Origin: Lucinisca nassula
Taxonomy: Eukaryota; Mollusca; Bivalvia; Lucinida; Lucinidae
Direction: 5' to 3'
DNA length: 64,000 nucleotides
Assembly (NCBI GenBank): GCA_963580285.1
Contig: OY757011.1
Coordinates: forward strand, 121,985,846-122,049,845
A model generated the notes under the pieces. It saw only the letters and a list, made by a program, of their open reading frames with translations. It ran no database searches and was not told the origin of the DNA. Both the position numbers and the translations under genes were made by a program. Numbering within the stretch: the first letter of the stretch is position 1; each line of letters opens with the position of its first letter. Positions 2,492 through 63,063 of the stretch are shown here, piece after piece.

Positions 2492-3500
2492 CAAAGTCTA
2501 CCAACCATGATATGTAGGTCAAGGTCAAAGATGCTTGCACAAAAGTTTCCATTCTTAAATGCAAGCTTGTACTAAGTACCATTAAGCTCTTACAGTTCTT
2601 GAGAAATGAACTTAACCATTAGGGTGAACACTAGGGTGGTCGCAATATTTTACAATGTCGGTGAACCATGAAATGTAGGTCAAGGTAAAATATGGACGCT
2701 TGCATTTAAGTTGCCATCCACAGATACAAGTTTGTACCAAATATCATTAATGTAGCTCTTATAGTTCTAGAGAAATAAACTTGACCATTAGGGTGAACGC
2801 TAGGGTGGTCGTTATATTTCACAAAGTCAGTGAACCATGAAATATAGGTCAAGGTCAAATATGGATGCTTGCATTTAAGTTGTCATCCCCAGATACAAGT
2901 TTGTATCAAGTATCATTAATAAAGCTCTTATAGTTCTTGAGAAATAAACTTGAACCTCAGGATGAACGCTAGGGTGGTCACAATATTTTACAAAATCAGT
3001 GAACCATGAAATGTAGGTCAAGGTCAAATATGGATGCTTGCATGTAAGTTGTCATCCCCAGATACAAGTTTGTACCAAGTATCATTAATGAAGCTCTTAT
3101 AGTTCTAGAGAAATAAACTTGACCATTAGGGTGAACGCTAGGGTGGTCGCAATATTTTACAAAGTCAGTGAACCATGAAATGTAGGTCAAGGTCAAATAT
3201 GGATGCTTGCATGTAAGTTGTCATCCCCAGATACAAGTTTGTACCAAGTATCATTAATGAAGCTCTTATAGTTCTTGAGAAATAAACTTGAACCTCAGGG
3301 TGAACGCTAGCGCGGTCGCAATATTTTACTAAGTCAGTGAACCATGAAATGTAGGTCAAGGTCAAATATGGATGCTTGCATGTAAGTTGTCATCCCGAGA
3401 TACAAGTTTGTACCAAGTATCATTAATGAAGCTCTTATAGTTCTTGAGAAATAAACTTGAACCTCAGGGTGAACGCTAGGGTGGTCGCAAATGTTGACGC
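2492..3500. repeat. 169-bp satellite array, about 6 units
   Basis: The landmark GTGAACCATGAAATG recurs at 2661, 2830, 2999, 3168 and 3337, exactly 169 bp apart; a more diverged unit begins near 2492. Units differ mainly by substitutions. The last breaks off at GGTCGCAAATGTTGACGCC. Decayed units of the same family lie at 43122-43297, 43907-43981, 44232-44410 and 44563-44895. The two nearly identical 66-residue minus-strand frames in this block are by-products of the repetition and not genes. Confidence 0.92.
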
Positions 3501-7327: not shown

Positions 7328-8130
7328 GCTGATAAGCCCCGAGGCATGGCCAATTTGAAACCCAGTGACATGATTGGCAGGATTCATGTAGTTGACCACT
7401 TGACGTTGCTACATACTACATGTAAATACGATCTAAGCTCTGGGCATCATGGTTTCAGAGAAGAAGATTTTTTAAGTTTTTCTCACTATAAATCTATGAA
7501 AGCTGATAAGCCCTTGGGCATGGCCAACTTGGACCCCACAGGCATAATTGGCAGGATTTATACAGTTGACTATTAGACTTTGCAACGTTCATATCTAAGC
7601 TCTGGGCCTTATGGTTTCAGAGAAGAAGATTTCTGAAGTTTTTCCCTTTATATTGGTCTATGGGAGCTAATGAGCCCCTTGACGCGGCCAATTCGGACCC
7701 CCAGGGGCATGATTGGCAGGATTTTATCAAGGTGACCACTAGCCGATGTATAAACTGGATATCTAAGCTCTGGGTATTATGGTTTCAGAGAAGAAGGTTT
7801 TTTAAGTTTGTCCCATTTTAAATCAACATGTATGTATGGGAACTGATAAGCCCAAGGGTGTGGCCAATTTAGACCTCAGGGCTGGGGGGTTGGGCATGAT
7901 TGGCAGGATTTATACAGTTGACCGCTATATGTTGTTGCATACTAAATATCTAAACTCTGGGCCGTTTGGTTTCAGAGAAGATTTTTGAAATTCTAACAAT
8001 AGCTGATAATCCCCGTGGCGAGGCCATTTGGGATCCCAGGGGCAACATGGGAAGGATTTATGTAAAGGACCACTTGACTTTGCTTCAAACAAAATATCTT
8101 AGCTCTATGCCTTATGGTTTCAGAAGAAGA
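7328..8130. repeat. Tandem array, about 5 units of 160-176 bp
   Basis: The landmark GCTGATAAGCCC (and variants) occurs at 7328, 7502, 7666, 7842 and 8002. It is followed each time by GCATGGCCAATTTG, GATTGGCAGGATTTAT, GTTGACCAC, ATCTAAGCTCTGGGC and TGGTTTCAGAGAAGAAG in the same order. Units vary in length through small indels. The 115-residue plus-strand frame at 7229-7576 is a product of the repeat and breaks in the third unit. Confidence 0.9.
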
Positions 8131-16686: not shown

Positions 16687-16943
16687 TGGAGCGTGATAGC
16701 TCAGTGGTTCGTGCACTTGCCTCTGATGCTAGAGGTCCCGGGTTCGATCCCCGGCAGCGGCGATAAAATTTCGGTGTCCGAACACGCTCCATTGGCATCA
16801 TTTGCAGGGATGAATGTCATAAAGTGCACCGTTCTTCGGATCGGGACGTTAACTGGAGGCCCCCTGTGCAGGGAGAACCATCCCCTCTGCAGGTTAAAGA
16901 TCCCTACCGTAATTACATGATTACTGTGTAGGCTTTCATCCTG
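16687..16943 (+). mobile_element. SINE S2 head and body
   Basis: The tRNA-like head at 16689-16762 has box A TAGCTCAGTGGTTCGTGCAC and box B GGGTTCGATCCCC. The body has CGGATCGGGACGTTAA, AGGCCCCCTGTGCAGGG and TTAAAGATCCCTACCG. It breaks off after ATCCTGCAA at about 16940. Its tail resumes at 18550 (CTGGAGTGTATGTAAT), as shown by the unbroken minus-strand copy at 46529-46826, where CCTGCAA runs directly into CCTGGAGTGTATG. It is therefore split by S4 and LINE-A. Confidence 0.85.
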
Positions 16944-28465: not shown

Positions 28466-28859
28466 CAAAGTAGAAGTAAAACAAAGATCAGGAATTGATA
28501 CAATTAACTTACTCCACCCATAAAAGACACCAAAGGGAAACAAATACAAACATTAAGCGACCAGACCATAATGGAAACCTAAACAAAGGAAGGCCATAAG
28601 GACAGTTACTTTCCCACAAAATGGCCATATGGCCATCCAAAACCAAAAGACACAAGTGATACACACTACACACAGTAAGTAACAAACAACAACATAAATA
28701 AATCGCCACAGAAGAGCCGCCTTGGAACGGTCAGTGGAAGATTTCCACTGGGGGGCTTAAATCGATTTTACGTGGCCACAATCCTCGCCCTTACTTCCAT
28801 CGCGATTTAGACAAATAATTTGTTCAGTCCGCATGAAGGCCTCCTAACTCATCAGTGCA
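28466..28859 (-). mobile_element. Penelope 3' unit, complete, with long target duplication
   Basis: Read on the minus strand it runs from CACTGATGAGTTAGGAGGCC to CCTGATCTTTGTTTTACTTC, the same limits as at 32677-33064 and inside the Penelope element at 36009-36377. The flanks repeat: ATGTATAAGAATGAACGAAA before it and ATGTCTAAGAATGAATGAAA after it, about 25 bp with a few mismatches. It moved as a separate short element. Confidence 0.78.
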
Positions 28860-32676: not shown

Positions 32677-33064
32677 CAAAGTAGAAGTAAAACAAAGATC
32701 AGGAATCGATACAATTAACTTACTCCACCCATCAAAGACACCAAAGGGAAAGAAATACAAACATTAAGCGACCAGACCATAATGGAACAAACATAAACAA
32801 AGGAAGGCCATAAGGACAGTTACTTTCCCACAAAATGGCCATATGGCCATCCAAAATTAAAAGACACAAGTGATACACACAGTAAGTAACAAACAACAAC
32901 ATAAATAAATCGCCACAGAAGAACCGCCTTGGAACGGTCAGTGGAAAGATTTCCACTGGGGGGCTTAAATCGATTTTACGTGGCCACAATCATCGCCCTT
33001 ACTTCCGTCGCGATTTAGACAAATAATTTGTTCAGTCCGCATGAAGGCCTCCTAACTCATCAGT
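32677..33064 (-). mobile_element. Penelope 3' unit, complete
   Basis: Minus strand from CACTGATGAGTTAGGAGGCC to TTTTACTTCTACTTTG, including the hairpin CAGTGGAAATCTTTCCACTG and TGGCCATATGGCCATTTTG. Same limits as the copies at 28466 and 36009. Confidence 0.82.
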
Positions 33065-35726: not shown

Positions 35727-36377
35727 CCCAATCACGGTTGGCAACTTTGCTTCCCCCTTTAATTGCACGCCGGTGGGTCAGGCCTCAGATTCTATGACGG
35801 TTCCTACGTAAAGGCTTATTGAGAATTAGGGAGATCTAATTCAAGGTAATGTTGGTTGGTGCCTGATGCTCTGTCTCTGGTCGGACCCATCGGAGTCTTA
35901 TTGTTGGTTTTCTTTTGCTCCAGCATTTCAGTGGTTTCTTGCTGTCGAGTCCTCACCGTTGTCTCACCTCTGTGGTTCTTTGATTATTTGTGTTCACGGA
36001 GATGTTGCACTGATGAGTTAGGAGGCCTTCATGCGGACTGAACAAATTATTTGTCTAGATCGCGACGGAAGTAAGGGCGAGGATTGTGGCCACGTAAAAT
36101 CGAGTTAAGCCCCCCAGTGGAAATCTTTCCACTGACCGTTCCAAGGCGGTTCTTCTGTGGCGGTTTATTTATGTTGTTGTTTGTTACTTACTGTGTGTAT
36201 CACTTGTGTCATTTTATTTTGGATGGCCATATGGCCATTTTGTGGGAAAGTACTGTCCGTATGGCCTTCCTTTGTTTATGGTCTGGTCACTTCATGTTTG
36301 TGTTTCTTTCCCTTTGGTGTCTTTGATGGGTGGAGTAAGTTAATTGTATCGATTCCTGATCTTTGTTTTACTTCTAC
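35727..36377 (+). mobile_element. Penelope-like element 3' UTR
   Basis: Continues from the RT stop. The portion 36009-36377, CACTGATGAGTTAGGAGGCC through CCTGATCTTTGTTTTACTTC, is the unit found alone at 28466, 32677, 39438, 43982, 44411 and 45278. It holds a perfect 20-bp palindrome, CAGTGGAAATCTTTCCACTG, and the 16-bp palindrome TGGCCATATGGCCA. Short open frames across it are not genes. Confidence 0.82.
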
Positions 36378-36482
36378 TTTGAGCAAAAAAAGCAAAAACA
36401 TAGGCACGTGTATGTAATGAATTCAATAAATGTGTGATAAAATTTGACAACTTGTGCCGACGGGAGTACTGACTGATAAGGC

Positions 36483-39375: not shown

Positions 39376-39776
39376 CATCATGAAAACACACCTACATAAT
39401 TCTGACCCATTGAACCCCACTTTTATACAGTAAAACTTCCTTTGTTTAGGTTTCCATTATGGTCTGGTCGCTTAATGTTTGTATTTCTTTCCCTTTGGTG
39501 TCTTTGATGGGTGGAGTAAATTAATTGTATCGCTTCCTGATCTTTGTTTTACTTCTACTTTACAGGGGTAAAGATTATTTTTCTCATTTCTGGACAAAAT
39601 GTAGATTGTGAGTACTCGTTAGAACCACCTCCATGAGGCAGTTCTAACGTGTACCCACAATCTATATTTTAGAGCAGAAATAAGAAAAAATATCTCATTT
39701 TTTCATCTTTAAATTTTCGTGTTTTTTTTCGGCGGTAACATTTACAATGCATTTGTATAGGCGTGATTTCTTAATG
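39376..39776. mobile_element. M2 MITE interrupted by a Penelope 3' scrap
   Basis: CATCATGAAAACACACC at the left and GGCGTGATTTCTTAATG at the right, with the full hairpin core CGTTAGAACCACCTC/GAGGCAGTTCTAACG at 39618-39650. The M2 sequence breaks after GTAAAACTT (39437) and resumes at ACAGGGGTAAAG (39563). Confidence 0.82.
39438..39562 (+). mobile_element. Penelope 3' unit scrap nested in M2
   Basis: CCTTTGTTTAGGTTTCCATT to GTTTTACTTCTACTTT, the last 125 bp of the unit at 36009-36377, lying inside an M2 MITE. Confidence 0.8.
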
Positions 39777-40844: not shown

Positions 40845-41030
40845 AGCCCAGAAGCCAATTTGACCTCATTAGTAACCCTTCTTTTAATTTTCCAAAACCT
40901 GGAATAGACCTGATGATCCCTAAAGAAATAATATAAAGTGCACTATGATGAAGTACAGAGAGATGTTCTATTGCAACCTGATGCTACAAACTGTGTGAGG
41001 GGGTTGCAGCCAGTTAAATCGAAACCAGTC
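40845..41030 (-). mobile_element. Diverged relative of the hammerhead retrozyme
   Basis: Follows the order of the 261-bp unit at 43298-43905: CCAATTTGACCTCATTAGTAAC (core region), TTTTCCAAAACCTGGAATAG, TGATGATCCCTAAAG, CACTATGATGAAG and GAGATGTTCTATTGCAACC. The ribozyme core is lost: minus-strand CTAATGAGG replaces CTGATGAGG, and no CGAAAC follows. Confidence 0.5.
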
Positions 41031-42700: not shown

Positions 42701-43121
42701 GTGTACTATCCAACTGCACACATGCAAGGGTTGATCTGCATCTACTGAATTCCCCAGTGGCAGAATTTGCCTCTTATAAGCCTGCAAGGTAAGAGATAAG
42801 GCTTGACAGCGGCCCACAGCTGGGCCATTCAACTTCATACCATATCTGTGTAACTGAGCTTATCATCAAATTTGGTATAATGTCCTGGATAATAGAGAGA
42901 GCAGGATTATGTCCTGTCTTTCCATCAGATTGTGTAATACTTCTCCATCTCCAATAAGGCTTAAATAAATTTCAAATGCTTGTAAGAATCCTTTATTGTT
43001 TGAGAACAGGTGGCAGCAACTTGGCATTCTTGTATCTATACATAGACTTTTGATCAGGAAACTACCTCAAACTACCTGATCCTGATTTCTTTAAAACAAA
43101 AGCTCGGCCAAGGGGAAATCT

Positions 43122-43297
43122 TCACAAAGTCAGTGAACCATGAAATGTATGTCAAGGTGAAATGTGGATGCTTGCACCAAAGTTACCCTTCCCAAGATGC
43201 AAATTTGTACCACGTTGAAGTATACTTAATGATTCTCTTATAGTTCTTTGGCCCTGAACATTGGGTTAAAAGCTAGGCTTGATACAATAGTTCTCTA
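43122..43297. repeat. Decayed 169-bp satellite unit
   Basis: CACAAAGTCAGTGAACCATG, TGTGGATGCTTGCACC, TTTGTACCACGTTGAAGTAT and TTCTCTTATAGTTCTT follow the unit order of 2492-3500. It is cut at about 43297 by the retrozyme array. Confidence 0.75.
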
Positions 43298-43374
43298 ATA
43301 TGTTCTATAAAAGGGTTATCCTTTTGAAGCAAGGAATACACCACAGAAGTGAAAAATATGGAGTGTACATGTTT

Positions 43375-43428
43375 TCTGGGCCAGACTAGCTAGTTTCGGC
43401 CAATTAGGCCTCATCAGTGACCCTCAGA
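43375..43428 (-). ncRNA. Hammerhead ribozyme, copy 1
   Basis: Minus strand: core CTGATGA (43411-43417), stem II GGCC/GGCC with loop TAATT, core GAAA (43394-43397), a very short stem III (CT/AG) with loop AGCT, then the cleavage triplet GTC (43384-43386). Stem I pairs GGGTCA with TGGCCC (one G-U), followed by a two-base bulge and TCT/AGA. All invariant core bases are present. Tiny stem III and a bulged stem I are typical of type I hammerheads of Penelope elements and retrozymes. Cleavage is expected between 43384 and 43383. Confidence 0.88.
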
Positions 43429-43635
43429 TATTTTCAAAATTCCACAATGGAATCAATGATCCCAAAGGACAAGAAAATATAATCTACACTATGATGTAGG
43501 GCAGGGAGACGTTTTACCGCCGCCACACATTCCCACACACCAGCTGTAGTGAAGTTAAATATGTTCTATAAAAGGGTTATCCTTTGGAAGCAAGGAATAC
43601 ACCACAGAAGTGAAAAATATGGAGTGTACATGTTT

Positions 43636-43689
43636 TCTGGGCCAGACTAGCTAGTTTCGGCCAATTAGGCCTCATCAGTGACCCTCAGA
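43636..43689 (-). ncRNA. Hammerhead ribozyme, copy 2
   Basis: Same structure as copy 1, shifted by 261 bp. Conserved CTGATGAGGCCTAATTGGCC, then GAAAC and GTC. Two ribozymes in one transcript would release a 261-nt monomer. The 2-bp stem III suggests that dimeric transcripts may be needed for efficient cleavage (known for the class). Confidence 0.88.
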
Positions 43690-43906
43690 TATTTTCAAAA
43701 TTCCACAATGGAATCAATGATCCCAAAGGAAAAGAAAATATAATCTACACTATGATGTAGGGCAGGGAGACGTTTTACCGCCGCCACACATTCCCACACA
43801 CCAGCTGTAGTGAAGTTAAATATGTTCTATAAAAGGGTTATCCTTTGAAAGCAAGGAATACACCACAGAAGTGAAAAATATGGAGTGTACATGTTTTCTG
43901 GGCCAG

Positions 43907-43981
43907 TGAACCGTGACATGAGATCAAGGTCAAATATGGATGCTTGCGTTGAAGTTGCCATCTCTAGAAGCAACATCTCTA
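43907..43981. repeat. Decayed 169-bp satellite piece after the retrozyme
   Basis: GTGAACCGTGACATGAGATC, AAATATGGATGCTTGCG and GTTGCCATCTCTAGAAG follow the satellite unit. It ends where a Penelope 3' unit begins. Confidence 0.7.
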
Positions 43982-44231
43982 GGCGGCTCTTCTGTGGCGA
44001 TTTATTTATGTTGTTGTTTGTTACTTACTGTATGTATCACTTGTGTCTTTTAATTTTGGATGGCCATATGGCCATTTTGTGGGAAAGTAACTGTCCATAT
44101 GGCCTTCCTTTGTTTAGGTTTCCATTATGGTCTGGTCGCTTAATGTTTGTATTTCTTTCCCTTTGGTGTCTTTTATGGATGGAGTAAGTTAATTGTATCA
44201 ATTCCTGATCTTTGTTTTACTTCTACTTTGC
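43982..44231 (+). mobile_element. Penelope 3' unit, 5'-truncated
   Basis: GGCGGCTCTTCTGTGGCGAT through TTTTACTTCTACTTTGCAC, inserted in a satellite unit. The 100-residue frame at 43885-44187 spans two unrelated repeats and is not a gene. Confidence 0.82.
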
Positions 44232-44895
44232 ACTTAGTATGATCCATGAAGCTCTTATAGTTAGAACTTCAGAAATGGACTTGAACATTTGAGTGAAAGT
44301 TAGGGTGGCCCCAATAGTTCACAAAGTCAGTGAACTATAAAAAGTATGTCAAATGCAAAAAATGGTTGCCTGCACTAAAGCTGCCATCCTCAGATGCTAG
44401 TTTGTACCAAGCAGAAGTAAAACAAAGATCAGGAATCGATACAATTACCTCACTCCACCAAACAAAGACACCAAAGGGAAAGAAACACAGACATGAAGCG
44501 ACCAGACCATAATGGAAACCTAAACAAAGGAAGGCCATAAGGACAGTTACTTTCCCACAAGTATAATTTATGAAGTTCTAATAGTTCTTGAGAAATGGAC
44601 TTGACCACATGGTTGAAAGCCTTGGTTGACGCAATAGTTTACAGTCAGTGAACCATGAAATTTAGTCAAGGTCAATCATGAATGCTTGCATTAAAGTTGC
44701 TATCCCTAGATGCAAGTTGCAACATCAGGAATGAAGCACTTATAATTCTCAAGAAATGCACTTGTACATCAGTGCGAAAGTTAGGGTGGTTACAAATACT
44801 GTCAATGGCTTCAGAAATGGATGAACAAACAGGCAAATGGATGGAAAAATGGACTCCTACATGTATATAGAGCCATGCTTCAAGCAGGTGCGACA
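44232..44895. repeat. Decayed 169-bp satellite units, interrupted
   Basis: GTGAACTATAAAAAGTATGT, GAACCATGAAATTTAGTCAA, ATGCTTGCATTAAAGTTGC and GTTAGGGTGG recur with about 169-bp logic. The end (AAATGGATGAACAAACAGG, AGCAGGTGCGACAAAAAC) matches the end of the array at 3500-3570. It is split by the Penelope piece at 44411-44562. Confidence 0.72.
44411..44562 (-). mobile_element. Penelope 3' unit, 5'-truncated
   Basis: CAGAAGTAAAACAAAGATCA through GGACAGTTACTTTCCCACAA, the last 150 bp of the unit on the minus strand. Confidence 0.82.
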
Positions 44896-45277: not shown

Positions 45278-45535
45278 AAGTAGAAGTAAAACAAAGATCA
45301 GGAATCGATACAATTAACTTACTCCACCCACCAAACACACCAAAGGGAAAGAAATACAAACATTAAGCGACCAGACCATAATGGAAACCTAAACAAAGGA
45401 AGGCCATAGGGACAGTCACTTTCCCACAAAATGGCCATATGGCCATCCAAAATTAAAAGACACAAGTGATACACACAGTAAGTAACAAACAACAACATAA
45501 ATAAATCGCCACAGAAGAACCGCCTTGGAACCTCC
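45278..45535 (-). mobile_element. Penelope 3' unit, 5'-truncated
   Basis: Minus strand from CAAGGCGGTTCTTCTGTGGC to TTTTACTTCTACTTG. The minus-strand frame here is repeat-derived. Confidence 0.82.
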
Positions 45536-57105: not shown

Positions 57106-57162
57106 ACCTTTGAAACTATTCAAAAGTGGTCTTAAAGACCACTTTTGAACAGTTTCAAAGGT
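57106..57162. promoter_or_regulatory. 28-bp near-perfect hairpin in the LINE-G 5' UTR
   Basis: Arms ACCTTTGAAACTATTCAAAA + GTGGTCTT and AAGACCAC + TTTTGAACAGTTTCAAAGGT are inverse with one mismatch and a one-base loop. It lies about 110 bp from the LINE 5' end. It could be a structured RNA leader or a fixed small palindrome; function unknown. Confidence 0.6.
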
Positions 57163-57812: not shown

Positions 57813-59775
57813 ATGAGTGACCGAAAGGGAACAAACTTAATCGAATCCTTTGAGGATGATAATCCCAGCTTGTGGCTTCCAAGGGGACATATTATTACAC
57901 ATCAACCACAGGCTTCACCACCTCCTGCAATGTTAGGATCATTCACTGAACAGCCTGATCCTGTGCAGGCTACACCAACAAAGAATCCAACTGACACTTC
58001 CAGTTCTCATGCTGTAGTCATGAAAACACTAGAGAAAAATGACTTTATTTCAGAAAAATCCAGAAATCCAAATCTTACTGCAGAAACAGAAAAATCTAGA
58101 AGTGACACTAGTAAATGTGCAGATGTTTCGGATTTGTCTTACTCTCGGACATCGCATGTTAGTGCAATCGAAAGAGAAAAACATGTTAGTGATAAATTCA
58201 ATGGTGTTTTATACCATATTAATTATTCCTACATACAACCAGATTGCTATACTATTTTCCACAAGGGGACTATATAGTCAGTTTATCTCTTGTTTAGAAA
58301 AAGAACTTCATTCAAAGTCAGCCAACAAAGAGAAACCTCGTTATGAAACTCATCTAAATGGACAAAAGTGTGTAATAGCTGGTGACCAGTCAGAGTCCTC
58401 TGTTGTAGTGACAGGCCCCGCTCGTAGTCTCTGGAGAGAAACTACATTTTTACGCATGTCAGTAAGACTATTTAGCTACTTTGCGGCAGATAATGGGGAA
58501 GAGACCAGCGTGTCACATGGGACACAAGCCTTAACGTCAACACCAGCTGACCAGCTGAGACATCAAACACATTCAAATCTTTTTATGTCTCCGATAGCCG
58601 TGCCGAAGCCCATAGAAGCTATGAACTGTGAGGAGATAAACAAACAATTAAATATCCTCTCCGGAGTAACAAAGACATTACAAGGGCAAATTGATCAAAT
58701 AAATCATATCATGAATGGATTAATTAATAAAGTGGAGAACATAAAGCAGTGTAATTACTTAAGGAAAACCACTAATGAAGCACCATCAGTTGTGGTATTG
58801 TCACAAAATGAAAATGATGAAGTTGGTGCGAAAACAATGTGCAATTTGTTTGATGAAGGACAGCCAGCTGTTTTTCCAGGGACTGCATCATATAGTGCAG
58901 CCACCAAAACTAACTTGGAGAAAAAACAAAATAGGAACATAGCTGAAAAGCAGCCGAGTGCAACAGGAAGCAAGAACCCTCCCAGTAAACAGTCTAGGAA
59001 CATAGATAAATCATCGGGGAGACCAATCCAAACAATCATTGGTCATCGAGCAACACAGCCAAAAACTCTGTTAATAGGTGACTCTATTATCTCTGGGATA
59101 AGCAAGAGGGGTTTACACAGGAATGTTGAATGTCACCCTATCCCTGGTGCAACAGTGGACATACTAATGCATAAAATTAGAATTTTTGATTTGAAGAGTT
59201 TTGAAAACATCATAATTTATGTCGCAGGCAATGAGGCAGCAAATATCAAAACAGACTTAGACCTGGACACCACTGAAGAAAAGTATGAACAGTTAGTAAA
59301 TTTCATTAAAGAGAAAAGTGCTGAAATTAACATTTATCTTTGTAGTGTTTGCCCGCGTGAGGATACTTCTGTTGAAGACATTAATGAGATGATCAAAAGA
59401 CAAAGTCAGCATCATCAAGGAACTTTTATCGACATCCACAAGACCTTTTACAACAAGCATAATCAGCTTAAAACTCATTTCTACGACCAAAGGGACAATT
59501 TACATCTATCAGCATCAGGTACAAAAGGATTACTTGGTGCTATAAATAGACATATAGAAATTGTTGACGATTTCAAGAAATGTACCCAAAGAACCTTTTC
59601 AGCTGGAAAGGTCCAATACAGACCTCGTCATTCTCAAAATGACAACAGCTATGAGCGATGTTTTAAATGTGGACTTTCTAATCACAGAACTAGTGAGTGC
59701 TTCCATAAAAATCAAGTTCAATGTTTTCAGTGTAACTACTTTGGACACAAAGATAAATTTTGTTGGAATCTATAG
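57813..59775 (+). pseudogene. LINE-G ORF1: coiled coil, SGNH domain, two zinc knuckles (one frameshift)
   Basis: ATG at 57813 (MSDRKGTNLIESFEDD). This frame runs to 58277; the coherent sequence then continues in another frame, open from 58039 to 59775, so one frame change near 58255-58265 (TATATAG region) separates them. Segments: a Ser/Thr/Pro-rich N-terminus; a helical part EEINKQLNILSGVTKTLQGQ then IDQINHIMNGLINK (about 58630-58740); an SGNH-like domain with LLIGDSIISGI (about 59070), IIYVAGNEAAN (59215) and RDNLHLSASGTKGL (59490); and two CCHC knuckles, CFKCGLSNHRTSEC and CFQCNYFGHKDKFC (59658-59763). Esterase plus knuckles is a known CR1/L2-type ORF1 layout. Its role would be RNA binding and particle formation. 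Confidence 0.82.
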
Positions 59776-59823
59776 GACATCGGCAAATATGCCACCCATA
59801 CTGAAAATAATACAGTCTCATTC

Positions 59824-62800
59824 ATGTCAATCAATAGGTTTAACTTCTTAGCAAGTATGTGCGAAAGCTGTAATTATGTTCATTGTGAATGTGACAAGAA
59901 CAATAACTTTACAAATACACAATATACAAGTATCAGTAAAACTAATAGCAAATCAAGGGAGACAAATTGTGACTTTTCAGAAACTGTTTATGATTTATCA
60001 ACACTGATTGATAGCAGTAAACATTTTAACAATATATATGGTAATTCCACCACAGAAAATAATACTTTCCTTGATTATGACACTATAATTGATGATAATA
60101 ATGTGCATGAAAATGATTTGCATGAAAATAGTATGCATGAAAATGTGCATGCTTGCCATTCTTCCATGAGTGCCCAAAGCATCTTAAATTTAGGTCTTCA
60201 TAAAAAAGGATTTAAGATGGGTCATTTGAATGTTCAAGGTATACAAAACAAAATTGATCAAATTGATTTGCTTTTAAATAGTTCACAAAACAATGTACAT
60301 GTATTAGGACTCAGTGAAAGCAAACTGAATTGTTATCATATGAATGATATATTTGAAGTTCAAAATTATCAAATGTTTCGGAAAGATAGAACTAATTCAG
60401 TGGAAAGGCCTGAACAGGGAGGTGGCCTTCTGGTCTATGTAAAAGATGGTATAAACTGTAAAAGGAGATGCGATTTAGAATGTGAGCGAATTGAATGTTT
60501 GTGGTTGGAAATTTTCCCAACAAATAGTAAAAGTTTTCTGGTTGGAAATATTTACAGACACCCAATTGAAGCGATTAGCTGGAATGAGCAATTTGAAAAT
60601 TACCTAGAAAAAATTTTAGAATGTGAAAAAGAAGTTTATTTACTGGGTGATTTCAACCGTGACCTCGTGCAAGACAGCATTAAGCAAACTTGGCTTGAAT
60701 ATATGGAAACCTTCGGCCTGTTTCAATATATCAAAGTGCCTACAAGAGTCACAGATCAGTCTGCAACTTTGATTGATCATGTCTATTCAAATACCCACAC
60801 TAATATTCTGATGACCACAGTTCCACGGGTAGGCCTAAGTGATCATTTTCCCATTTTTATTAGTAGAAAAATGAATGGATCATACAGTCTCAAGAATACC
60901 CATTACACTATATCATATAGATCCTTCAAAAACTTTGATGAAAATAAGTTCATTAATGATTTGCAGTCAACCCCATTGGACGTAATAAAAATATTTGACG
61001 ATGTTAATGATATTGTTGAAGCATGGTCAACTCTGTTTTGTGACATTGTTGACACACATCTGCCCTTGCGTAAACACCGTGTCAAGCGCAAACAGCGACC
61101 AAAATGCCTAACTGCAGATATAATTGATGCTTTTAAAACAAGAGATCGGTTCAAATCTATAAACAATGATGAACAATATAGAGTCTGGAGAAATAAAGTT
61201 AATAAAATGATTAAGGTAGCGAAGAAACAGCAGTACTCTGAAATCATTAATGAAAATGATAAAAATCCAGCCAGTGTGTGGAAACTTTTTAAAGAACTAG
61301 GAGCAAGTAAATGTAATATTGGAAATAGTATTTTGTCATTAAAATTTGGTGACAAAACCATCAAAAATCCTTCTGAAATTTCATCTGAATTCAACAAGTT
61401 TTTTGTATCTGTAGCCTCAAAAATAAAAGAACCCATTATACCCTCTACTTTTGACAGACTTAAAATGTTTTGTGATCAAAAGTTAACAGGAAGCTCTCCT
61501 TTTTCTATTCCTAACATTGAATATGAAGAAGTTGAAAAATACCTGGGAACTATTGATATTACCAAGGCTACTGGAGCAGACAATATTGGGCCAAGGTTAT
61601 TAAAATTGGCAGCACCATACATATCTGAAAGCATTACTTTCATTTGTAATCAAAGCATAATGAAATCAAAATTTCCTGAAAAATGGAAAGAAGGTAAAGT
61701 GACTCCCCTTCACAAAACTGGATGTAAAGATGACACAAACAACTATAGACCTATCTCAGTTCTACCTGTCCTGTCAAAGTTGTTAGAAAAACATGTACAT
61801 GATACTTTAATGTTCTATTTATCTTCTAATTATCTGCTTCATTCCACTCAATCTGGCTTCAGACCAAATCACTCCTGTGAGACAGCATTATTACAAATGA
61901 CCACAAAATGTTTAGATGCAATAAATAACAGTGAAATGATTGGGATGGTAATGATTGATTTTAGAAAGGCATTTGATTTGGTGTACCATACATTATTGCT
62001 TAAAAAACTCGAATACTATAAAATTTCTGAGGAAACCATCAGCTGGTTTTCTTCCTATTTACTAGAGAGGAAACAAAAAGTCTTTGTCAACAACACACTG
62101 TCAAACACTGAAGATATCATATGTGGAGTGCCTCAGGGATCCATTTTAGGGCCATTACTATTTTTAATATTTATTAATGACCTTCCATTAAATATTGATA
62201 ATGTACTTACGGACTTATATGCCGATGACACAACCCTTTATTGTACAGGTAAATCACAAACGTTCATTGAAAAGCAGCTACAAGCTGCATTGCATAAGCT
62301 TTCTACTTGGTGCAAACAAAATGGAATGCTAATAAACACTGCTAAAACAAAAGCAATGTTACTTACTACACCCCAAAAGAGAACTCATTTAAATAAAAAT
62401 ACATTTCTGTTGACTTTAAACAATGAAACATTAACAGTGGTCTCAAGTGATAAAATTTTAGGAATACACATTGACAACAATTTAACATGGACAGATCATA
62501 CTAATGCTGTTGCCAAAAAAATTATGTCTAATTTATGGTTGCTCTCTAGAATTAAGGAATACTTATCCACTGATCAAAGAGTACAATTTTACAAGGCCTA
62601 CATACAACCCCACATCGATTATTGCAATTCCATCTGGGGAGGCACTTCACAAAGAAATCTTGACAGGATATATAGGCTACAAAAAAGAGCATGTAAAATT
62701 ATTTTAGATTACCAGTACGAAGACATAGCAGTCAGCATGGAGGAACTTAAGATTCTTAACATTTATGAACGAATTTACCTCAAGAAAGCTAAAATTATGT

Positions 62801-63063
62801 ATAAAATTTCAAATTCTTTGACACCTCAATACATTAATGAAATGTTCCACTTACGACCTTTGAATGATACTCTTCAGTCCCTAAGATCATCAGGAACAAT
62901 AAATTATGTGTTACCAAGGCCCAACAAAGAGCTGTTCAAGCAGAGTTTGATTTACTCTGGTCCAGTGATATGGAATAATTTACCTGATAAACTTAAACAT
63001 TTGGAAACTATTGACAGCTTTCACAAAAATTGTATAAAATGGATGAAAGGGGCTCAAATGTGA
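59824..63063 (+). CDS. LINE-G ORF2: APE endonuclease and reverse transcriptase, intact
   Basis: 1079 codons, uninterrupted, starting 48 bp after the ORF1 stop. After an N-terminal Asn/His-rich leader with a CESCNYVHCEC cluster (residues 13-23), the APE endonuclease spans about 129-340: MGHLNVQGIQNK, VLGLSESKLN, GGGLLVYVKDGI, LLGDFNRDL, LIDHVYSN, GLSDHFPIF. Reverse transcriptase spans about 560-830: TKATGADNIGPRLLKLA, NYRPISVLPVLSKLLEK, QSGFRPNHSCETALLQ, MVMIDFRKAFDLVYHTLLL, GVPQGSILGPLLFLIFINDL, LYADDTTLYC. Thumb: LGIHIDNNLTW, and the C-terminus YSGPVIWNNLPDKLKHLE. All catalytic residues I can name (the E, D, DH of EN; D and DD of RT) are present. It resembles the CR1/L2 group of the Jockey superfamily. 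No RNase H. Confidence 0.95.
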   Translation: MSINRFNFLASMCESCNYVHCECDKNNNFTNTQYTSISKTNSKSRETNCDFSETVYDLSTLIDSSKHFNNIYGNSTTENNTFLDYDTIIDDNNVHENDLHENSMHENVHACHSSMSAQSILNLGLHKKGFKMGHLNVQGIQNKIDQIDLLLNSSQNNVHVLGLSESKLNCYHMNDIFEVQNYQMFRKDRTNSVERPEQGGGLLVYVKDGINCKRRCDLECERIECLWLEIFPTNSKSFLVGNIYRHPIEAISWNEQFENYLEKILECEKEVYLLGDFNRDLVQDSIKQTWLEYMETFGLFQYIKVPTRVTDQSATLIDHVYSNTHTNILMTTVPRVGLSDHFPIFISRKMNGSYSLKNTHYTISYRSFKNFDENKFINDLQSTPLDVIKIFDDVNDIVEAWSTLFCDIVDTHLPLRKHRVKRKQRPKCLTADIIDAFKTRDRFKSINNDEQYRVWRNKVNKMIKVAKKQQYSEIINENDKNPASVWKLFKELGASKCNIGNSILSLKFGDKTIKNPSEISSEFNKFFVSVASKIKEPIIPSTFDRLKMFCDQKLTGSSPFSIPNIEYEEVEKYLGTIDITKATGADNIGPRLLKLAAPYISESITFICNQSIMKSKFPEKWKEGKVTPLHKTGCKDDTNNYRPISVLPVLSKLLEKHVHDTLMFYLSSNYLLHSTQSGFRPNHSCETALLQMTTKCLDAINNSEMIGMVMIDFRKAFDLVYHTLLLKKLEYYKISEETISWFSSYLLERKQKVFVNNTLSNTEDIICGVPQGSILGPLLFLIFINDLPLNIDNVLTDLYADDTTLYCTGKSQTFIEKQLQAALHKLSTWCKQNGMLINTAKTKAMLLTTPQKRTHLNKNTFLLTLNNETLTVVSSDKILGIHIDNNLTWTDHTNAVAKKIMSNLWLLSRIKEYLSTDQRVQFYKAYIQPHIDYCNSIWGGTSQRNLDRIYRLQKRACKIILDYQYEDIAVSMEELKILNIYERIYLKKAKIMYKISNSLTPQYINEMFHLRPLNDTLQSLRSSGTINYVLPRPNKELFKQSLIYSGPVIWNNLPDKLKHLETIDSFHKNCIKWMKGAQM

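Follow-up and report, generated by a model that had tools for sequence, protein, structure and literature searches.

The array at 43297-43906 of the 64-kb stretch of DNA analyzed here (the window) bears on the route by which animal retrozymes get back into DNA and on the source of the enzyme they use, a question left open in the available parts of PMC7229834 and PMC7761336 (these and the other papers are cited for the portions of their text that were available). Its value is that the units are near-identical, that the empty site can be read, that target-site duplication is absent and that the 5′ end lies at or next to a predicted ribozyme cut. What is observed directly is the array, its motifs, the target, the junctions and the lack of a coding frame, and these are considered first.

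The region 43297-43906 is identified by Tandem Repeats Finder as a tandem array with a period of 261, 2.3 copies and 99% matches, and a unit-by-unit comparison gives 2.33 near-identical 261-bp units, which are arranged as follows.

43297..43906, sense on the minus strand: putative tandem retrozyme array, 2.33 x 261 bp (repeat and alignment data); at its edges AA (two bases, left) and CAG (three bases, right) may just as well belong to the satellite
43297..43557, minus strand: unit 1 (unit comparison)
43558..43818, minus strand: unit 2 (unit comparison)
43819..43906, minus strand: partial unit 3, 88 nt, without a ribozyme, its end being the equivalent of the cut site

The repeat spacing of 261 bp given in an earlier note on this DNA is borne out by the period and by the two full units, which have mismatches at only 2 of 261 positions, both of them outside the hammerhead. 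The 88-nt third piece has 1/88 mismatches relative to unit 2 and 2/88 relative to unit 1. The GC content is 41% in the array and 39% in the 64-kb window. As was also claimed, the unit has no coding frame, the longest stop-free run in the six frames of a tripled unit being 51 codons. The unit contains no Pol III A and B boxes, and a single TATAAA is present on its antisense strand.

A complete type I hammerhead is found on the minus strand of both full units (2/2), with the order stem I, CUGAUGA, stem II, GAAA, helix III and GUC, while the partial unit has none.

43375..43428, minus strand: unit 1 hammerhead (type I), with cutting predicted at 43384/43383
43636..43689, minus strand: unit 2 hammerhead (type I), with cutting predicted at 43645/43644

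Stem I pairs GGGUCA with UGGCCC (6 pairs), after which the 5′ strand has a GA bulge and 3 further pairs follow, stem II is GGCC-UAAUU-GGCC, with 4 pairs and the loop UAAUU, and helix III consists of an A-U pair, two pairs and a tetraloop. What had been taken for a minimal stem III is like the helix of invertebrate retrozymes (PMC7229834) and not of the Penelope type (PMC7761336). A descriptor for type I hammerheads, which demanded the exact core, at least 3 pairs in stem II, at least 3 in stem III including A15.1-U16.1 and at least 4 in stem I, has two matches only on both strands of the 64 kb, at these two sites, and the same two sites and no others in the window are recovered when one core mismatch is allowed with slightly different stem limits. 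Among 1500 dinucleotide-preserving shuffles of the window, 7 contained a match to the loose descriptor and none had a match with at least 6 pairs in stem I and at least 4 in stem II. Searched for alone and with free gaps, the core pattern does not stand out from chance, its 37 mostly overlapping matches in the window being reached by 15 shuffles. The two minus-strand hammerheads of the earlier note are upheld by a complete core in both full units that is unique in the window, and its cut sites (43384/43383 and 43645/43644) are at the correct positions as predicted cuts.

Searches with covariance models, which had been named as a check, gave a divided answer. No Rfam hammerhead was obtained at its gathering score, nor any at E ≤ 10 in the whole window, but weak matches below the curated thresholds were found with the 608-bp region alone, namely RF02275 Hammerhead_HH9 (17.6 bits, gathering score 52, E 0.17) and RF03152 RAGATH-1-hammerhead (19.7 bits, gathering score 56.3, E 1), both in register on both units. 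The exact hammerhead pattern has 0 matches in contigs of prokaryotic genomes and of viruses, and a sensitive blastn search with the array found no match among phages and plasmids; since these collections consist of prokaryotes, viruses and plasmids, misses in them say little about an animal element.

The two hammerheads are predicted to pair with each other from the sequence of helix III, ACUAGCUAGU. Its 10 nt form a perfect palindrome, identical to the reverse complement, which has no occurrence in the window other than the two helix III sites.

43385..43394: helix III palindrome, unit 1
43646..43655: helix III palindrome, unit 2

A palindromic helix III predicts that two motifs pair as a double hammerhead. 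For the lone motif, the optimum is not the active fold (−16.6 kcal/mol for the minimum-energy fold, −14.0 for the active one), and its folding is no better than that of shuffled sequences (z −0.63, equally good folds in 54 of 200). When two 54-nt motifs of native sequence are cofolded, the optimum is a double hammerhead in which a helix III of 10 bp is common to both, and the energy is −46.3 kcal/mol for the two strands vs. −16.6 for one alone. In the 610-nt transcript of native sequence, the forced double form (−171.9 kcal/mol) is better by 7.1 kcal/mol than two forced single forms (−164.8), and the free optimum (−174.9) includes the inter-unit 10-bp helix and lacks a complete active fold. 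As chance alone makes 1/16 of tetraloops palindromic and the energies are those of the native sequence only, the double hammerhead is a lead rather than a proof. Motifs from newt and axolotl act as dimers (PMC7229834, PMC6155905), and most invertebrate hammerheads are reported to cut well as monomers (PMC7761336).

The product that would result from cutting at both sites is the following.

43384..43644, minus strand: single 261-nt monomer between the predicted cuts, of which release is predicted

The third piece has no ribozyme because it stops at the cut position, and with two ribozymes at the locus a minus-strand transcript could, judging from the sequence as it is, release one exact 261-nt monomer (43644-43384) and not a series. 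The retrozyme interpretation proposed earlier, with the minus strand as sense, agrees with most of the anatomical features examined, and release would amount to one monomer here. The 261-nt circle has a predicted energy of −67.8 kcal/mol for the sense strand and −50.9 for the antisense strand, the sense circle being more stable than most shuffles (300 shuffles, mean −57.5, z −2.1, 7/300 as low). In the predicted sense circle 63% of the bases are paired, which is less than the "above 70 %" given for published examples (PMC4918200).

Both flanks of the array are a satellite of ~169 bp, which is also present as a 5.9-copy array at 2503-3490.

43121..43298, plus strand: left part of the satellite unit that the array interrupts
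43904..43973, plus strand: right part of the satellite unit that the array interrupts
43296..43299: junction at the 3′ end in sense direction, its position uncertain within AA (43297-43298)
43903..43907: satellite junction at the 5′ end in sense direction, at any one of four bonds

When the flanks are joined at 43298|43904, the empty site aligns as a satellite unit, a 2-bp gap falling at the junction relative to all three of the satellite stretches aligned (scores 97, 141, and 143); the alternative join at 43296|43907 scored 84, 128, and 130 and was dropped. The satellite unit at 44620 is also short of 2 bp close to the junction point, so the 2-bp loss is perhaps older than the insertion. No target-site duplication beyond 3 nt flanks the array. 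Such duplications are optional in metazoan non-LTR retrozymes, exceeding 4 bp when present (PMC7229834), and those of Nematostella repeats are 15 bp (PMC4918200).

The same satellite block contains an inverted repeat (44077-44244 and 44393-44560) with 168-nt arms that are 89% complementary, and pieces related to it are located at 28466-28722, 32677-32929, 36144-36381, 39436-39564, and 45278-45525. At 2503-3490 the ~169-bp satellite is followed by a ACGGACGG-type stretch, an arrangement that bears a resemblance to the Helitron-type central repeats of bivalves. Another tandem repeat, of 168 bp, at 7431-7824, includes the best matches in the window of two published primers (7500, minus strand, 19/25; 7529, plus strand, 17/21) for the bivalve satellite BIV160 (PMC5139131). 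These two matches lie near each other, and they make a bivalve the probable host. Elsewhere in the window there is a LINE-like element (58039-63063), with an open 1079-aa frame that matches endonuclease and reverse transcriptase and an upstream 578-aa frame that matches GDSL-lipase, as well as a strong hairpin of ~52 nt (57108-57160) with a mir-9457 match on both strands that is well below the gathering score. A tRNA match (16697-16754; 30.4 bits, threshold 29) is followed after ~200 bp by a reverse transcriptase frame and is perhaps part of a SINE; ARAGORN, run with the bacterial code, found no tRNA, there or elsewhere.

One further copy related to the unit is present in the window.

40854..40979, minus strand: decayed relative (similarity to the unit; core broken)

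It is situated 2.3 kb from the array, has 70% identity to the unit over 120 columns (40854-40970) and is extended by nhmmer to 40979 (E 1.2e-9). Inspected by eye, its core reads CTAATGA, with GAAA and helix III absent, and a core broken in this way means a dead ribozyme. A decayed relative at this distance points to a dispersed family, one that seems to have resided in this genome for some time. A longer local alignment of the relative, with a score of 139.6 (the best of 200 mononucleotide shuffles reached 108.9), was left unused beyond 40854-40979. By eye (40854-41017), the similarity also seems to stop at AGTTAAAT, the point of the unit where the array starts at 43297, and this shared boundary seems to be either a natural one or due to chance.

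The array very likely represents a non-autonomous animal retrozyme of the non-LTR kind that inserted here. Its type I hammerhead, 261-bp tandem units, GC content of 41% and absence of a coding frame are the anatomy of such elements, which in metazoans have tandem units of 150-450 bp, a GC content below 50% and no LTR (PMC7229834). The suggestion that this is a poorly described system does not stand, as the kind has already been described in coral, mussel, and salamander (PMC7229834). The RNA and enzyme steps of the cycle, all of which are modeled on published retrozyme work or on the anatomy, would begin with read-through transcription of the minus strand and with cutting by the hammerhead, probably as a double hammerhead via the palindromic helix III. 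The cut RNA would then be circularized by a host ligase, the enzyme of a partner element would reverse-transcribe round the circle to yield a cDNA longer than two units, and this cDNA would insert elsewhere. At the present locus it would have entered a satellite unit and been joined through short microhomologies without a target-site duplication, with the 5′ end of the inserted cDNA coinciding with or adjoining the predicted ribozyme cut, as it would if reverse transcription had reached the end of a ribozyme-cut RNA.

The position of this end requires separate consideration. Because AA on the left and CAG on the right are common to insert and target, the right breakpoint can be placed at any of four bonds, from 43903|43904 to 43906|43907, and the cut-site equivalent is 43905|43906. 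The right junction corresponds to the sense 5′ end, where first-strand cDNA synthesis is expected to stop, and at this one locus it is 0-2 nt from the predicted ribozyme cut. It is conceivable, and put forward here tentatively, that reverse transcription proceeded more than twice round the 261-nt circle and ended at the hammerhead cut of the template, the ribozyme thereby setting the 5′ ends of new copies; if true, the ribozyme would serve insertion in addition to RNA release. The R2 ribozyme, which sets the 5′ end of new R2 copies, has a comparable role. It is more likely than not that the end coincides with the cut by chance, or was placed by the CAG microhomology alone, on an RNA truncated at random, an explanation that concerns the end alone and is compatible with a retrozyme insertion. 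A random end would fall within the four-bond interval in only about 4/261 cases, which counts against it, but the unit has six CAG triplets and an end chosen by microhomology would be at this one in about 1/6; the chance of a 5′ end so near the cut is roughly 1.5% to 17%, depending on the end model, and a single locus is involved. In a lizard Penelope-like element tested in vitro, mutants of the hammerhead kept the capacity to insert, its cutting being dispensable for insertion, and RNA ends at the cut were not observed, which argues against a general role of the hammerhead cut in insertion (PMC11167929). The titles and abstract openings of the literature found do not mention animal retrozyme insertions that end at the cut site, and we make no claim that such cases are unpublished.

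As for the nature of the array itself, a Penelope-like element of which the pseudo-LTR part has been left, with the coding part missing and the tandem made by the element's own enzyme, is an improbable source. Such elements carry type I hammerheads in their pseudo-LTRs and form partial tandems, and one rotifer insertion is likewise free of a duplication and joined by microhomology at its 5′ side (PMC3846280), but their hammerheads usually have no helix III nucleotides (PMC7761336), and the array, with its helix III, does not fit that type. In addition, a GIY-YIG domain is absent from the long ORFs scanned (7/13), and the unit has no coding frame of its own. That the array is an ordinary satellite fragment which arose by duplication at the DNA level and carries a fossil ribozyme out of use is very unlikely, for although only 2.33 copies are seen and the motif is not called by Rfam, neither core is damaged, every stem and the palindrome are preserved, the few differences between the units spare the hammerhead, and the block cleanly interrupts a different satellite.

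The preferred reading, a non-LTR retrozyme, can be placed among known systems, some of them compared by description. With the plant LTR retrozymes the array shares the same proposed circular-RNA life cycle, but those have type III hammerheads, LTRs, a primer-binding site, a polypurine tract and 4-bp duplications (PMC4918200). The Schistosoma W-elements, compared by description, are likewise animal repeats with hammerheads, some of which cut in vitro (PMC8490949). Penelope-like pseudo-LTR hammerheads are also type I and tandem, with one published case that lacks a duplication and has a 5′ microhomology junction, whereas their helix III is usually missing and the elements have a reverse transcriptase-endonuclease frame. 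The axolotl satellite hammerheads are in units of 330-350 bp; HHR_Amex1 has a palindromic helix III tetraloop as found here, HHR_Amex2 has the same helix III length, and dimeric action is possible in both cases, the need for a dimer having been shown in axolotl and being predicted for the array. Mytilus retrozymes are longer (350-390 bp vs. 261 bp; PMC7229834), and the published mussel motifs lack most nucleotides of the canonical loop contacts between helix I and helix II. Relative to the metazoan non-LTR retrozymes as described, the array differs in that it lacks a target-site duplication and that its sense 5′ end coincides with or adjoins the predicted cut. With those of coral, mussel, and axolotl it has in common a type I hammerhead, short non-coding tandem units, a GC content below 50% and no LTR seen, and like the invertebrate members it has two pairs and a tetraloop in helix III (PMC7229834).
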